DNA of 64,000 bases from Paracoccaceae bacterium (GTDB taxonomy: Bacteria > Pseudomonadota > Alphaproteobacteria > Rhodobacterales > Rhodobacteraceae), in contig JABSSD010000021.1 of NCBI GenBank assembly GCA_013214575.1, forward strand, positions 1 to 64,000, in the 5' to 3' direction. The first letter of the stretch is position 1. Each line of letters opens with the position of its first letter. Shown in pieces: positions 1,730 to 34,905 of the stretch. The translations under genes were made by a program, and so were the position numbers. The notes beneath the pieces were generated by a model. The model worked only from the letters and a program-made list of their open reading frames with translations, did not search any database and was not told where the DNA came from.

Positions 1730-2881
1730 TTATGGCAGCGCAGTCTTACCCTCGTGCATCACGTCGTATTCACTTGGGGCAACAACCTGTTCCATCAGAT
1801 CGTTGTTCCATTCGCCCTCGACCAGAACGTGTGCAGTGGCGCCCAGATTGACCGCCTCGATCAAGTTGTGGTTGACGTAGGCATAGACCCCAGGCTGCAG
1901 GAATGTATACAATGCGGCCCCGGCAGAGCCACCGCGAATGAACCATGTTTCCAGATCACGATCCGGCGCATTGTTGAACTTGCCGGTTTCCCAGACCAAG
2001 TCACCGTGGCCACCAATCAGGTGCGGGCGACTGTCCCGGTTGGCCTGCGAGTGCACAAACAGCACCGTTTCACCCTGATTCGCGATCAGCGCGTTATCGC
2101 CAGTCAACGCGCCCACTTTACCGTTGAAGGTCACGTGGGTTGGGATCAACCCGTTCATCACCTCAAGTGTGTCGCCATAACTGTCGCCGGCATCCTCAAA
2201 GCGCATGTAGTCGCCATTTTTATCTTTGGGAATGTAGAAGTCATTCTCGCCGATGTAATAGATGCGATCATAGCTGACTGGCTTGCCTTCGTGGTCTCTC
2301 AGGCCGTCGCGTGGCAGCACCATAATGGCACCTGACATACCGGAAACGACGTGCCATGGGATCATCGGCCCACCTGGCGCACAGTGATAAACAAAGGTGC
2401 CCGGACGGGTTGCCTTGAACCGCAGAACTGTCTTTTCACCTGGATTGACCAGGGTCAGCGAGCCACCCCCCAGTGCGCCGGTGGCGGCGTGGAAGTCGAT
2501 ATTGTGCTGAAACATGTTTTCTGGCGGATTGTAGAGGGTCAGTTCAACATAATCGCCTTCATGCACCACCATCATCGGCCCTGGCATCGACCCATTGAAA
2601 GTCATCGCCTGCAAATAGGCATCATCGGAAATTTGCACTTCTTTTTCGATGATCTTCATTTCGAACTGAATAACCGCAGGACCGCTTGTCGCGACCTGTT
2701 CATGCTCATGCACAAACGGCGGTTTGAGCAATTTGACTTTACGACGGGGAAGAGTGCTGAGATCGACCGCTTCCGCAGCGGAAGTGTCCATGACTTCTTC
2801 CGACGAAGCCGAGGCCTTGATTGCAAGCGGCGCGGCTGCGACCGCTACAGCACCCATCAGTGTGGCTCTACGTGTCAGCAT
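1730..2881 (-). CDS. nirK: Copper-containing nitrite reductase NirK
   Basis: Reduces nitrite to nitric oxide in the periplasm, the defining step of denitrification. The 383-residue product has an N-terminal twin-arginine-like signal (LTRRATLMG) and two cupredoxin domains. All copper ligands are seen: type 1 His126, Cys167, His177 and Met182; type 2 His131, His166 and His338. The catalytic Asp129 (HNIDFH) and His287 (RPHLIGG) are also present. The linked [10 protein letters not shown] motif is that of class I enzymes. Electron donor is probably the pseudoazurin encoded at 169-636. No nitric oxide reductase genes are in the window. An FNR/Nnr-type box is centred 70 bp before the start. Confidence 0.97.
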
Positions 2882-2944
2882 TGGCTATCTCCATATTGGG
2901 ACATTGTTTCACCACTGATCTACTGCGTTTGGTACCGCTCCACG

Positions 2945-2958
2945 TTGTTCCAACGCAA
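2945..2958 (-). promoter_or_regulatory. FNR/Nnr-type box upstream of nirK
   Basis: On the minus strand the sequence is TTGCGTTGGAACAA, a TTG-N8-CAA dyad; the TTGCG half matches Nnr-type sites of rhodobacters. The centre is 70 bp before the nirK start, compatible with activation from about -41.5. No regulator gene is next to it. Confidence 0.6.
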
Positions 2959-3344
2959 ACTTCAAAACCAAATACCGGCCCCTTGGATAGCCTCGCGCCT
3001 GAGCCGGTAAACCATGATGGAGATTATCTTTTTGGGATTCGCCGCCAGGCCCTGACAGTACCGCCTGAAACGCCCCCGCAGGTGCTGATTTTCTCAGCCA
3101 GATCTCTCCGGATCAGGGGATTGCCCCCTCCCAACCCTCCTTTGACAGAGGGCTGGGGGCTGACAGCAAAGGCACCATGCGCACCGGTCTCCTGGTAAAT
3201 GCAGGCAAATTTCCTGGCAAAAGAGTGGGCCAAATATGTTTGAAACCACCGAAAACCCACCGAAGAACCACCGCGAATGGGCCGGAACGAGCCAGCAGAT
3301 GGCCGTTGCCCGTTGGTCAGTTCAAAGCGCCAAAGCGGGCTTTG
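2959..3344. other. Intergenic region upstream of nirK
   Basis: Non-coding stretch between nirK and the PAS protein gene, both on the minus strand. It holds the nirK control region and a GC-rich hairpin at about 3122-3162, in which CCCTC and CCCA tracts pair with GAGGG and TGGG tracts. The hairpin has no T-run, so its role is unclear. No protein-like reading frame stands out. Confidence 0.5.
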
Positions 3345-4583
3345 TTACCGAACCCGATGTGTCTCGAAATCCTGCGATCGAATTTCGTTACTCAACCGAA
3401 CGATGTGATCCAGTTTTTCAGAAATACGAGACTGAAAATCAGCAAGCTGATCGATGATATCGGTCAGTGTTTCTCCGGTGTCCGGCAGCCGCGCACTTTC
3501 AATTTTGCACAGGACACGGGTAGAACTCAGCCCCAGCAAATGACGATGCATGATACTGCAGGCCTGCAAAATGCGGTCGGCCTCGGTTTTCACATCCTGT
3601 AATCCAGCATAGGCCTCGGTAACCCGGTCCGCCGATACCTTACTCAGAATCTTACGTTCTGCATCCACATCCTGATTTTCGAGACTTTGTTCCTCGGCTG
3701 AAAATAACTCGCCGCACTCTCCGATGATCAGGGCCATACACTCGGCGAACAGGCAATTATTGACGGTGCCATTGATACTGGAAAAATTGCTTTTCTCACC
3801 CAGAACATGTGCTTCAAACCACTGTGACATGCTCTCCGACATGGTGCTGTAGTTTTGCGACAGAACGGTTACCGGCCCACCGGCAGGTTCAATGCGTGAG
3901 GCGATAACCCGCAAATTATGCGGAATGGTCCGCATCGCCTGAAATTCTTTAACCAGGCCTTCGCTTTCCTGCTTCAGCGTCTGGGCATTGTGCAGCATCT
4001 TGCGCATGTTTGCGATCGTTGCATTTTGGTTTCGCTTCAGACCGACATCGCGCGCCAATAGTTCTTCGCTGGCAGCATGGGCTGCAAAATGATGATATTT
4101 TTCAAACCCCAACTCTTGCAGCCGGGCCAGTAAACGCATGGCGCTGGCTTGCGGCGTTAGGTTTTCGGTCTGTTCGGCCTTCAGCAGCGCAGCATATTCA
4201 GTTTGGATTGTTGCGAGCAGAGGACTGCTGGGTTTAAAACGAACCGAGAGGTACCCGCCCTCGCAGGGGACCACCATGGCGTAGACCCAATAATAAAGCC
4301 CATCCTTGGTGCGGTTTTTTACATAGGCCCCGATACTGCGGCCGCGCTTGATGGTGTCCCATAGAAGCCAGAACAGGCCCTTGGGCATATCGGGGTGACG
4401 CACCGCCTTATGCGGCGCTCCCTGCAGTTCGTCCCATTCAAAACCTGCAACCCGCTTGAAAAGGTAGTTTCCGGCCTGAATAATCCCGCGTTCATCCGTT
4501 CTTGAAAAAAAACACTCGTGGAGTTGGAATGGAGCTTCGCCGATGGAGGCCTGGTTGCTGATAGTCTGGTCGTGAAAAGACAT
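3345..4583 (-). CDS. PAS-domain sensor with chemoreceptor-like C-terminal region
   Basis: Probable soluble sensor of redox or energy state. Numbered from the ATG at 4619, residues 36-128 form an Aer-type PAS domain (typical RHPDMPKGLF and KNRTKDGLYYWV motifs). The remaining helical part contains a stretch at about 235-268 that resembles the hairpin tip of methyl-accepting chemotaxis proteins but is strongly diverged, so coupling to CheA/CheW is doubtful. There are no membrane segments. The internal ATG at 4583, preceded by GGAA, is preferred over 4619, which has no ribosome site. No chemotaxis genes are nearby. Confidence 0.7.
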   Translation of the reverse strand: MSFHDQTISNQASIGEAPFQLHECFFSRTDERGIIQAGNYLFKRVAGFEWDELQGAPHKAVRHPDMPKGLFWLLWDTIKRGRSIGAYVKNRTKDGLYYWVYAMVVPCEGGYLSVRFKPSSPLLATIQTEYAALLKAEQTENLTPQASAMRLLARLQELGFEKYHHFAAHAASEELLARDVGLKRNQNATIANMRKMLHNAQTLKQESEGLVKEFQAMRTIPHNLRVIASRIEPAGGPVTVLSQNYSTMSESMSQWFEAHVLGEKSNFSSINGTVNNCLFAECMALIIGECGELFSAEEQSLENQDVDAERKILSKVSADRVTEAYAGLQDVKTEADRILQACSIMHRHLLGLSSTRVLCKIESARLPDTGETLTDIIDQLADFQSRISEKLDHIVRLSNEIRSQDFETHRVR

Positions 4584-31855: not shown

Positions 31856-31945
31856 CTTAAATCTTTTCCTTTGCAAATCTTGTCGCCCAGCCTCTACCTT
31901 TCTATATAATGGATGACACCGCAACAGAACTTCGTGGAGATGGGC

Positions 31946-32269
31946 ATGCAACTGCCACCAAAAGTAACCGACCGGGCCTTTGCCCGACTGGCAGAGATCG
32001 GCGCTGCCGGACAGGGTCAGGCCCTGCGCATTGCCGTTGAAGGCGGCGGCTGTTCCGGGTTTCAGTACGAAATTGAGCTGGATAGCGCCAAGACTGACGA
32101 TCTGGTGCTGGAAGGTCAGGGTGAAAAGGTGGTGGTCGATTCCGTGTCGCTGCCATTTCTGGAGAACGCAGTGATTGATTTCACCGAGGAACTGATCGGG
32201 GCGCGCTTCACCATCGAAAACCCCAATGCCACCTCCAGCTGCGGCTGCGGCACCTCGTTTTCAATGTAA
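31946..32269 (+). CDS. Iron-sulfur cluster insertion protein (ErpA/IscA family)
   Basis: A-type carrier that delivers Fe-S clusters. The 107-residue product has the three conserved cysteines: GGGCSGFQY and the C-terminal SSCGCGTSF pair. GGAG precedes ATG 31946 by eight bases; the frame is open to 31913. The lack of isc/suf genes nearby suggests ErpA rather than IscA, but naming is tentative. Confidence 0.9.
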   Translation: MQLPPKVTDRAFARLAEIGAAGQGQALRIAVEGGGCSGFQYEIELDSAKTDDLVLEGQGEKVVVDSVSLPFLENAVIDFTEELIGARFTIENPNATSSCGCGTSFSM

Positions 32270-32275
32270 TTCAGG

Positions 32276-32319
32276 CTTTGGCTGGCGTTTTCAGAGGCTT
32301 CGGCTGCGGCTAGCCAAAG
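32276..32319. terminator. Hairpin between convergent genes
   Basis: Eleven-base stem with one mismatch (32276-32286 with 32309-32319) and a 22-base loop. It spans the space between the ErpA-like gene and the stop of the 359-residue protein gene. No T-run, so termination is only presumed. Confidence 0.35.
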
Positions 32320-33389
32320 GCCGAGCCGACCCGAGCAAACCCAGCAAAGAAGCGTTCAAAATTGCTGGTGCTGCTTTCGGCGGCACTCAGAATATCATGG
32401 GCTTCTTGGCTCAGGCCTGCCTGCAAATGCCGCCGCATCAGGGGCCAGTCGGCGCTCCTGTGGTGCTGCAGCTCATATAACATCTGTGACATCTGCCGCA
32501 GCGGCCCGGTTCGGCTGGCGCTTTGCCTGATTTGCATCGCGCCCGGCGGCACCCGCTGCGCAAAATATGGCTGCTGCGTCGCCGCCATCAGCCAATTGCA
32601 CACAAAATACTGGTGATATGCGTCTGCTGTCTGCCTCGGGTCATCGGTGGTCAGAACAAAACCAGCCGTCTGCCGCAAGAGCCAGCCCATCCATGCCACC
32701 GGTGGCGGCTTTCCGGCATAGTGCAAGGCGATACACACCTCTGCCAGCAGATCCGCGTTCTGATCCAGATAGGCCAGCAGCCCGGCATATTCGAGGCTGA
32801 TCAGCGCGCTCGGCTCCAGCTGCGGATCAAGGCGACCGTATTCCGACAGGTAGAACACGATATGGGTCAACTCATAGGCCGCCTTGCGATTGGGCAGCGC
32901 AAAGGTTTCAGAGCGATTGATGAAGCGCCGCAAACGGTGCTCGAGGGCCGCATAATCGCCGACGGCCTTGATGCCGCGCCGCTGCATCAGCCTGTGCGCC
33001 TCAGCACGTTGCAGGTCTGACAACTCGGCCTCGGCCAACCCCTGCTGCGCCACCCAATTGGCAATATCTTCACCTTTGTGTCCCGCCAGACCCAGATCCT
33101 CAAGATCCAGGCAGATCGACAAGATGAAGCGATAATATTGCTGGAAAAAGCAAATCTGATCTTCGATCTGATGGTAGAAACTGATCAATGGTCGCAGCTG
33201 GTTTTCGCTTAACCTAGCCCCGGTGCATTCCAGAATATTCAACAGCTCGGCATTTTCCTTTAACCAGTACACATCGCCTTGCTGTCGCCGGTGCTGTGCA
33301 AAATTATCAATAAGGGCAGTGCATTGCTGGTCAAAACTGGGTTGCGCACCTGGCGCCCCCGGCGCCCTGAGTGGAATGACGTTTGACAT
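32310..33389 (-). CDS. Helical protein of unknown function, partner of repeat protein
   Basis: A 359-residue protein without signal peptide, mainly helical. It resembles the uncharacterised family I recall as DUF6902. Seen motifs: YELTHIVFYLSEYG (172-185), with His176, and ALHYAG (221-226), with His223; also several Cys (23, 55, 80, 93, 219). It follows the 97-residue repeat protein gene by 64 bp on the same strand and is probably co-transcribed. The fixed His residues could make a metal or catalytic site; a modifying role on the repeat protein is a guess. Confidence 0.7.
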   Translation of the reverse strand: MSNVIPLRAPGAPGAQPSFDQQCTALIDNFAQHRRQQGDVYWLKENAELLNILECTGARLSENQLRPLISFYHQIEDQICFFQQYYRFILSICLDLEDLGLAGHKGEDIANWVAQQGLAEAELSDLQRAEAHRLMQRRGIKAVGDYAALEHRLRRFINRSETFALPNRKAAYELTHIVFYLSEYGRLDPQLEPSALISLEYAGLLAYLDQNADLLAEVCIALHYAGKPPPVAWMGWLLRQTAGFVLTTDDPRQTADAYHQYFVCNWLMAATQQPYFAQRVPPGAMQIRQSASRTGPLRQMSQMLYELQHHRSADWPLMRRHLQAGLSQEAHDILSAAESSTSNFERFFAGFARVGSAFG

Positions 33390-33422
33390 TCGATTGCTTT
33401 CTTTCAGTCCACGTAATCACAA

Positions 33423-33452
33423 GGCGCCCTTATGGGGCAATGAGCAGGCGCC
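33423..33452 (-). promoter_or_regulatory. Hairpin between repeat-protein gene and its partner
   Basis: GGCGCC arms (33423-33428, 33447-33452), with a competing inner stem GCCC/GGGC. No T-run. It could set a high ratio of the small protein to its partner, as often seen between a peptide gene and its enzyme. Confidence 0.35.
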
Positions 33453-33453
33453 G

Positions 33454-33747
33454 TTAGCTGCCCGACGAGAACATCTGCGTGCCCTCGCCCAAAGTGGTCA
33501 GCTGAAGACGGGCTGGCGCCGAGCCAGAGGAAAACAACTGGGTGCCCTCACCGGCCAAACTGTCGGACACAGAGGTCGGAGCAGAACCCGACGAGAAGGC
33601 ACCGGTTGCCTCGCCGTTGAAAATATCCGCGCTCATCTCAGCACTGGAACCAGAGGAGAACAATGCGGTGTCACCCCCGTCAAAAAGGCTGGACACTGTG
33701 GATGTATGGTCACTGGCAAACGCAGTATTATTACGAAGAGCGGTCAT
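33454..33747 (-). CDS. Tandem 21-residue repeat protein ending in FSSGS units
   Basis: A 97-residue protein, like the uncharacterised family I recall as DUF6749. It consists of a 13-residue leader (MTALRNNTAFASD) followed by exactly four 21-residue units, each ending FSSGS; the stop codon directly follows the fourth. Unit pattern: about eight variable residues, then a hydrophobic pair, a Gly-(Glu/Gly) step, Thr, and F-S-S-G-S. Ser, Thr and Gly dominate; there is no Cys, signal peptide or membrane helix. Ribosome site AAGGAG is strong. The architecture recalls multi-core peptide precursors, but no known modifying enzyme is adjacent, so a structural or binding repeat is equally possible. Confidence 0.75.
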   Translation of the reverse strand: MTALRNNTAFASDHTSTVSSLFDGGDTALFSSGSSAEMSADIFNGEATGAFSSGSAPTSVSDSLAGEGTQLFSSGSAPARLQLTTLGEGTQMFSSGS

Positions 33748-34098
33748 GGAATAAACTCCTTAAACAGGTTGAATGGGTGCAGCTAACGCTTGCACTCATA
33801 ACGCGATATATATTAATCAAATACCCTCAAAATTGTACGGTGTCTCATATTTCGGAGAGCTTCGCGTCACAACTCCATGAAATAATTGCTCAATAAATAA
33901 TCAATAAATATTCAGCCGCCCGCCCCCATAACCGCAAAACTGCAAGACTTCTTAACTATACCGAGGGTTTATTTTGCGACATTTCACTATCAAATTGATC
34001 GCCCCAGCCGCCGATTCGGTCGCCATGTTCACATCGCCAGCTTGCCCCTGCCGCCAACATCGGCAATAGATCTCACTCAGCCCAACAGGAGACCTGAG
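33748..34098. other. AT-rich divergent intergenic region
   Basis: 351 bp between the repeat-protein gene (minus) and xthA (plus), clearly richer in A and T than the surroundings. Contains two tandem 11-bp copies of CAATAAATAWT (33891-33912). No gene seen. Confidence 0.5.
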
Positions 34099-34905
34099 AT
34101 GAAAATCGCCAGCTTTAACATCAATGGCATCAAAGCCCGCGCTTTGGCTCTCCCGGCCTGGCTGGATGACGCCCAGCCCGATGTGGTGCTGCTGCAAGAG
34201 GTCAAATCGGTCGATGAAGCCTTTCCGCGCGCGCTGTTCGAGGACCGGGGCTATAATGTCGAAACCCACGGCCAAAAGGGCTTTAACGGTGTTGCGATCC
34301 TGTCAAAGCTGCCGCTGGAGGACGTGTCACGGGGATTGCCCGGCGACGACGACGATGTTCAGGCGCGCTGGATAGAGGCGACAGTGATTGGCAAACAGGC
34401 ACTGCGCATTTGCGGCCTCTACCTGCCAAATGGAAACCCCGTGGAACTGCAAGACGACGGCTCCCCGGTACCGGGTGGCAAATACGATTACAAAATGCGT
34501 TGGATGCAGCGATTGCAAGCGCGCGCTGCCGAGCTGATGTCAGGCGATGCCCCGGCGCTGATGGCTGGCGACTACAACATCATACCGCAGGCCGAAGATG
34601 CCACCCGACCAGAGGCCTGGCTGGAGGACGCATTGTACCGGCCAGAAAGCCGCGCCGCCTATCGGCGCATCGTCAACTTAGGCTTTACAGAAGCCTTTCG
34701 CGCCCGCCACCAGGGCCCTGGCCATTATTCATTCTGGGATTATCAGGCCGGCGCCTGGAACCGGGACGACGGCGTCCGCATTGACCATTTTCTACTGACA
34801 CCTCAGGCCGCAGACTTGCTGCTGGACTGTCAGATCGACAAACAGGTGCGGGCCGGCGAAAAACCGTCGGACCATGTGCCAATCTGGATCGAGCTGGATC
34901 TCTGA
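34099..34905 (+). CDS. xthA: Exodeoxyribonuclease III
   Basis: Mg-dependent AP endonuclease and 3'-exonuclease of base excision repair. The 268-residue product has the EEP-fold motifs: MKIASFNINGIKAR at the start, LLQEVKSVDEAFP (metal Glu), MAGDYNIIP, RIDHFLLTP and the final SDHVPIWIEL with the catalytic His. ATG 34099 follows AGGAG. Confidence 0.95.
   Translation: MKIASFNINGIKARALALPAWLDDAQPDVVLLQEVKSVDEAFPRALFEDRGYNVETHGQKGFNGVAILSKLPLEDVSRGLPGDDDDVQARWIEATVIGKQALRICGLYLPNGNPVELQDDGSPVPGGKYDYKMRWMQRLQARAAELMSGDAPALMAGDYNIIPQAEDATRPEAWLEDALYRPESRAAYRRIVNLGFTEAFRARHQGPGHYSFWDYQAGAWNRDDGVRIDHFLLTPQAADLLLDCQIDKQVRAGEKPSDHVPIWIELDL

Follow-up and report, generated by a model that had tools for sequence, protein, structure and literature searches.

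The window analysed here is a 64,000-nucleotide stretch of a Paracoccaceae bacterium genome (contig JABSSD010000021.1, positions 1 to 64,000), and it raises the question of what is made from a small minus-strand gene whose product carries the same five residues at four regular intervals. The first-pass annotation described this product as a leader followed by equal units ending in FSSGS, and proposed either a multi-core peptide precursor or a repeated binding module. The open reading frame, which runs on the minus strand from the ATG at 33747 to the stop codon at 33456..33454, agrees with that description, giving 13 + 4 x 21 residues exactly, with FSSGS starting at residues 30, 51, 72 and 93 and the stop codon straight after the last unit. 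The features of the locus are listed below with the evidence for each in brackets.

31913..32269, plus strand: Fe-S biosynthesis gene, flank outside the system on the downstream side (domain match)
32310..33389, minus strand: partner gene, 359 aa, DUF6902, proposed maturase (profile match, kept pairing)
33454..33747, minus strand: proposed multi-core precursor gene P0002, 97 aa (orthologues, pN/pS)
33457..33519, minus strand: unit 4, FSSGS end, stop codon directly after (sequence, pN/pS)
33520..33582, minus strand: unit 3, FSSGS end (sequence, pN/pS)
33583..33645, minus strand: unit 2, FSSGS end (sequence, pN/pS)
33646..33708, minus strand: unit 1, FSSGS end (sequence, pN/pS)
33709..33747, minus strand: N-terminal leader, 13 aa, MTALR start (sequence, relatives' leaders)
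33756..33761, minus strand: AAGGAG, likely ribosome-binding site of the precursor gene (sequence, GGAG conservation)
34042..34905, plus strand: exonuclease III-like gene, flank outside the system on the upstream side (Exo_endo_phos domain)

The repetition of FSSGS in the precursor is not due to chance: any 5-mer occurred at least four times in 24 of 200,000 shuffles of the protein, in a test that ignored spacing and counted overlapping runs. The four FSSGS copies are written by four different codon strings, indicating that no recent duplication of DNA produced them and that protein-level selection preserves their identity. Searches of Pfam and NCBIfam gave no family for the precursor up to E 1, its own genome gave one match to it, and a signal peptide was not apparent by eye. 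An antisense open reading frame on the plus strand (33223..33786) was discarded, the pattern of selection being that of the minus-strand frame.

That pattern comes from the same genus, in which orthologues were present in all seven other genomes searched, all of them with 97 residues and four units. Over the eight same-genus sequences, pN/pS was 0.009 in the core (F and the four residues behind it), 0.175 in the six residues before F (the recognition part), 0.41 in the spacer (ten residues per unit) and 0.53 in the leader, with pS at 0.66-0.69 in the three unit parts. The cores are thus under purifying selection in this genus. Equal unit length and kept FSSGS ends hold in all eight sequences, bar one FSSGA in unit 2 of one orthologue; they do not extend to the wider family, which has other spacings and other cores. 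The GGAG of the likely ribosome-binding site is invariant across the eight sequences. Further 5' of the gene, at 33878-33979, the eight species share invariant blocks (CGCAAAAT, TTTGCG and TTATTG on the minus strand), possible promoter or operator elements; a sigma-70 scan of 32200..34100, which includes these blocks, returned no site.

The precursor is followed after 64 nt by the partner gene, the product of which matches DUF6902 (PF21843) over its full length (E 7.9e-155; 515.5 bits against a cut-off of 27) and, more distantly, DUF6895 (PF21836; E 1.7e-21; 77.3 bits against a curated cut-off of 23.8). By profile, the partner is a member of a superfamily comprising DUF6902 and DUF6895. DUF6902 was found in 45 of 149 genomes of the same family (one per genus) and in none of 14 control genomes, and in a class-wide draw four of 385 genomes passed the DUF6902 cut-off, all of them from the same family and including the present genome. 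Named relatives come from Sulfitobacter, Roseobacter, Roseovarius, Pseudophaeobacter, Phaeobacter, Planktotalea and Pseudooceanicola, and the domain also occurs in two uncultured Granulosicoccaceae, which we take to be Gammaproteobacteria. No match to DUF6902 was found among plasmids.

Of 76 distinct DUF6902 genes whose upstream DNA could be read, 75 are preceded on the same strand by a repeat gene built like the window precursor (72 of a first set of 73, and all of three more), once a fragment at a contig end (L080), a DUF6895-type gene (L085) and identical proteins had been set aside; in L033, L040, L073 and L086 the precursor is cut by a contig end. The gap between the two genes in the first set is 11-109 nt in 68 of 72 pairs and 146-343 nt in the other four. 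Searches made in the opposite direction, with two precursors from other genera, gave matches in 34 and 32 of the 45 DUF6902 genomes, 39 together, and direct reading of DNA added precursors in G072, G087, G103 and G130, bringing the count to 43 of 45. The two remaining genomes are G170, which has a gene fragment at a contig end, and G070, home of the sole unpaired gene (L079). The 104 genomes without DUF6902 gave two marginal precursor matches (E 6.2e-4 and 7.2e-4), each interrupted by two stop codons; the DUF6902 search and the two precursor searches covered 149 genomes each, and the genomes listed agree. This distribution suggests that precursor and DUF6902 gene form an old, widespread two-gene unit with modified peptides as its probable product, and if this reading is right, 45 of 149 sampled genera of the family carry an unrecognised two-gene peptide pathway.

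The place of the pair on the chromosome is conserved as well. Clustering of neighbours at 35 loci returned, besides the pair, flanking gene groups, of which those near the pair match its flanking genes in the window in place and strand, with an opposite-strand group at the place of the exonuclease III-like gene in 33 of the 35. Neither at these loci nor among the window neighbours did a gene for a protease, a transporter or a second tailoring enzyme emerge as a conserved companion. An attenuator between precursor and enzyme was considered; relative to single-base shuffles, the folds of 66 intergenic stretches had a mean z of -0.92, a value too weak to claim one. Neither precursor nor partner matched any PADLOC-DB anti-phage defence family up to E 0.1.

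Across relatives, precursors contain 2 to 20 units anchored on G-x5-[F/Y]-x4, with other residues more rarely at F, and, judged from these sequences, the fixed anchor makes the 13/21 phase of the window precursor a matter of choice. Usually about 20-30 residues precede the first G, and an M[TSN]A start is common to many leaders. Unit spacing is 19-22 in 333 of 347 spacings (71 precursors), the others being 16-18, 29-30 or picking artefacts (41 in L090, 48 in L037). An [A/G/S/T]-P frequently comes next after the core, and many precursors end with their last core. The main cores include FSSGS, FTSGS, FTSGA, FTSGL, FTCGA, FCSAS, FSSAS, FPSGS, FISGS, FTSWS, FVSWS, FISWS, FPSWS, FTNWC, FTSCA, FITSC, FTTSC, FTTSM, FTSSM, FTTSG, FTAGY, FGCYT, MMCCS and YIAGL. 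The absence of Cys from the window precursor, taken earlier to exclude classical lanthionine chemistry, does so for this protein; 14 of 71 precursors have Cys in their main core (FTTSC, FTNWC, FCSAS, FGCYT and others), so the exclusion does not carry over to Cys chemistry in the family as a whole. Matches of relatives to Pfam families (MORN; Herpes UL35, E 7.2e-10; DUF4245) were taken as compositional artefacts, because no stretch passes on its own. At L010 (G034:C6) and L014 (G034:C20) one precursor is apparently divided over two contig ends, probably because near-identical repeats broke the assembly, so that draft assemblies may understate the number of units.

Within a protein the four positions behind F vary little from unit to unit, but their residues differ from genome to genome. 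When units were chosen without reference to core letters (65 precursors, 393 units, five other same-genus loci being left out), within-protein identity was 0.65-0.77 at the four core positions versus 0.26-0.33 at seven spacer positions, a contrast lowered by some misregistered units, and between-protein core identity was 0.20-0.46. Core positions 7 and 9 were alike in 0.65 of comparisons within proteins and in 0.20 and 0.28 between them, whereas G and F were as alike between as within proteins (0.76/0.74 and 0.56/0.59). Mean within-protein core identity was 0.684, against a mean of 0.387 for units shuffled between proteins (maximum of 200 shuffles 0.421); the shuffles ignore descent, for which the comparison of core with spacer inside the same units corrects in part. 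The majority core of a protein made up a mean share of 0.785 of its units under this neutral picking. A single core was found in 63 of 71 precursors when units were picked partly by core similarity (at least two of four letters), a procedure that favours homogeneity, that produced artefacts in the count of L095 (1) and the first unit of L037, and that left out L079, which has no precursor, and the partly masked L103, whose visible units were read by eye. The comparison of homologues that the first-pass annotation had called for thus shows a varying number of units whose ends stay largely fixed within each protein.

In the DUF6902 tree, neighbours on short branches have different core sets, for example FSSGS, FTSGS, FCSAS and FSSGL in a five-row group with moderate support (82/93, in a bootstrap that had not settled). 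Concerted change of a genome's cores would be the simplest account, and the switching of whole core sets would, if that reading is right, offer an exceptionally clear example of concerted evolution acting on a peptide product. Two precursors were possibly caught during a switch: L101:5598-5930 combines FTAGY and FSSGS units, and in L090:5196-5927 FTTSG alternates with YMTAC/FMTAC. Mixed cores also occur in L044, L065, L087 and L105.

Within the partner, H176, D213, E217 and H259 are each present in 52 of 53 aligned DUF6902-type rows, and the only row without them is L079, in which all four are missing. This gene (L079:2831-3928, G070) is a divergent DUF6902 gene (E 1.9e-37) without a precursor that looks decaying or repurposed, and its neighbours on either side were read as counterparts of the exonuclease III-like and Fe-S genes of the window. 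Such a pattern is what a catalytic set should leave, a dead copy being expected with loss of the substrate, as seen here in one case that carries no statistic. If the reading as precursor and maturase is right, a domain of unknown function gains a substrate and a predicted active site. In an eight-row alignment that includes four DUF6895-type proteins and in which 22 positions, chosen for their conservation in DUF6902, were examined, the same four residues together with Y258 and F179 are found in seven of eight rows, the odd row again being L079. H176, D213, E217 and H259 are kept in all four DUF6895-type rows, with which DUF6902 rows share 15-20 % identity. A search of PDB sequences with a profile of the 53 rows gave no match up to E 10.

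The DUF6895 family thus resembles DUF6902 in sharing H176, D213, E217, H259 and Y258, and the two are also alike in lying directly behind a small peptide gene in most places read. Five places with DUF6895-type genes were inspected in other Pseudomonadota, and in four of them (L123, L124, L125 and L126) a small gene lies directly upstream, with two such genes in L123; at the fifth (L130) a core-like stretch is present without a clear start. Plasmids gave eight DUF6895 matches, and of four regions opened, three have a small peptide gene upstream (L172 and L174 on Streptomyces plasmids, L171 on a Pseudalkalibacillus plasmid, Bacillota); in L173 none was recognised upstream of the DUF6895-like match, which is preceded by a second protein with a THxxFHLTDWG motif. 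The peptides at the four Pseudomonadota places have a leader of the form L..SGI[IL]N...T..QLL and cores such as GRWYVY, GPWFVL, GPWYIY or DWTF...YVYKG. In a leave-one-out profile test of eight small peptides, in which pairs from one locus were left out, none of 500 shuffles reached the real score each time (weakest score 9.9 bits, for L174). The eight recognise each other, indicating that related peptide genes accompany the superfamily in three phyla, in a partial survey that covered four of the eight plasmid matches and left out G601 and G611 (below cut-off). Precursors linked to DUF6895 have a longer leader and one or two W/Y-rich cores, whereas DUF6902 precursors have a short leader and many cores.

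Cyanobactins, orbitides, dikaritins and multi-core graspetides are made from tandem cores with recognition elements, on all of which one maturase acts. The DUF6902 system likewise has tandem cores in varying number (2 to 20 units) and a recognition part that is conserved while the core changes freely between species. A dedicated neighbour gene, presumably for an enzyme, adjoins the precursor in 75 of 76 cases. It differs from these systems in its enzyme family, in cores that are largely identical within a protein, and in having no linked protease or cyclase that could be seen. The pair appears to work like a multi-core RiPP, full membership of which hinges on a modified product. None of the 14 window open reading frames scanned with Pfam, the pair included, is a lasso B protease or an asparagine-synthetase-like C cyclase, and none contains a Lan-type domain; judged on these frames, the pair is not a lasso peptide cluster, nor, given also the Cys-free precursor, a lanthipeptide cluster. 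In the literature searched, from which subscription papers mostly fell outside, DUF6902, DUF6749, PF21843 and PF21836 were unmentioned and DUF6895 appeared in one reference title. Titles and abstract starts gave no description of such repeat precursors, although an earlier one is possible in subscription papers, and matches to FSSGS were unrelated by title. The DUF6902 pair is probably a new, apparently undescribed RiPP class.

The title in question names a member of the DUF6895 family as an epimerase of lasso peptides (Shi et al., ACS Catal. 2026, 16, 1757; reference 371 of PMC13352647). Together with the remote homology between the two families, this title makes epimerisation the leading guess for DUF6902. 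A parallel is offered by MslH, described as the metal-dependent peptide epimerase of the lasso peptide MS-271 (PMC10406935), which acts in a RiPP pathway and whose two His/Asp pairs recall the H/D/E/H set of DUF6902; its calcineurin-like fold, set against a DUF6902 profile without a PDB match, leaves this as a parallel only, with no homology shown.

The account we favour, and hold to be somewhat better than even, is a two-gene RiPP-like system in which a multi-core precursor is served by a DUF6902 enzyme of the DUF6895 superfamily that is likely to epimerise the core. The enzyme would recognise the G-[DE]-x-x-x-x-[F/Y] element before each core and modify one F-x-[S/T]-x-x core after another, the most likely reaction being an L-to-D change of one or more core residues that uses H176, D213, E217 and H259 as a His/Asp/Glu/His set. 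Cleavage between units by an unlinked protease would follow, plausibly at the junction of the core with [A/S/G/T]-P, and would release several copies of one peptide. If this is right, peptide epimerisation extends to a new enzyme branch, and, with two linked genes only, the pair is testable by co-expression in E. coli.

Pairing and anatomy would be the same if the dedicated maturase carried out another reaction on the multi-core precursor, such as cyclisation, cross-linking, oxidation or cleavage of the core. This is the less likely form of the same idea, though a serious one: DUF6902 is a separate branch from DUF6895, with the low identity given above, and the cores differ widely, with Ser/Thr/Gly, Trp, Cys or Met in them. 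It is set back by the fact that epimerase is the only superfamily activity found named, albeit from a title (PMC13352647), and by the presence of the His/Asp/Glu/His set among the residues common to both branches.

Readings without a RiPP fare worse. The original proposal of a multi-core precursor gains over that of a plain repeat module from the varying unit number, the largely uniform end motif of each protein and the dedicated partner gene adjoining it. An intact multivalent array of short linear motifs (G[DE]xxxxF), bound by DUF6902 as adaptor or scaffold, would account for the freely varying unit number, for a G-x5-F element that resembles a binding motif and for the lack of a protease or exporter standing out beside the pair. 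It is nevertheless improbable, as a pure binding motif would predict neither that constraint within one genus peaks at F and the next four residues nor that the core differs as a set between near relatives, and the joint absence of H/D/E/H in the one precursor-less copy points to catalysis. It is very improbable that the repeat protein stays unmodified in a structural, surface or bacteriocin-like role, served by DUF6902 as its chaperone or immunity partner: low complexity and Ser/Gly-rich composition fit this, as does the status of DUF6902 enzyme function as a prediction, but no signal peptide is apparent by eye, the core is far more alike than the spacer within a protein, and DUF6895 homologues lie behind leader-plus-core peptide genes.

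A broader extension of the epimerase reading is tentative and, in our estimate, doubtful. DUF6902 and DUF6895 may together form a peptide epimerase superfamily that reaches beyond lasso peptides, in whose Roseobacter-type branch the leader would have been largely lost and recognition moved into each repeat, so that one enzyme serves up to 20 cores. Since cores mostly change as a set within a genome, every lineage would then produce a barcode-like D-amino-acid peptide of its own, encoded at one conserved site in the chromosome. Core switching between lineages and near-uniformity inside each would fit a signal or competition peptide.

Several DUF6895 loci show arrangements of their own. The gene in L123:3119-8741 (G628) lies behind two leader-plus-core genes and looks like part of a separate peptide gene cluster, its neighbours including a C70/C39-like cysteine protease, an O-methyltransferase and, by eye, a transporter-like protein. 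In L130 (near 2400-4300, G824) a DUF6895-like gene has upstream a core-like GWWAVVSDHCVV segment with no clear start in frame. The genes at L171:5602-5862, L172:5747-5953 and L174:4548-4904 are annotated as hypothetical proteins and encode related leaders before DUF6895-like genes. In L124:8437-8868 and L125:7269-7685 leader and core were duplicated together, giving two leader-core modules per protein.
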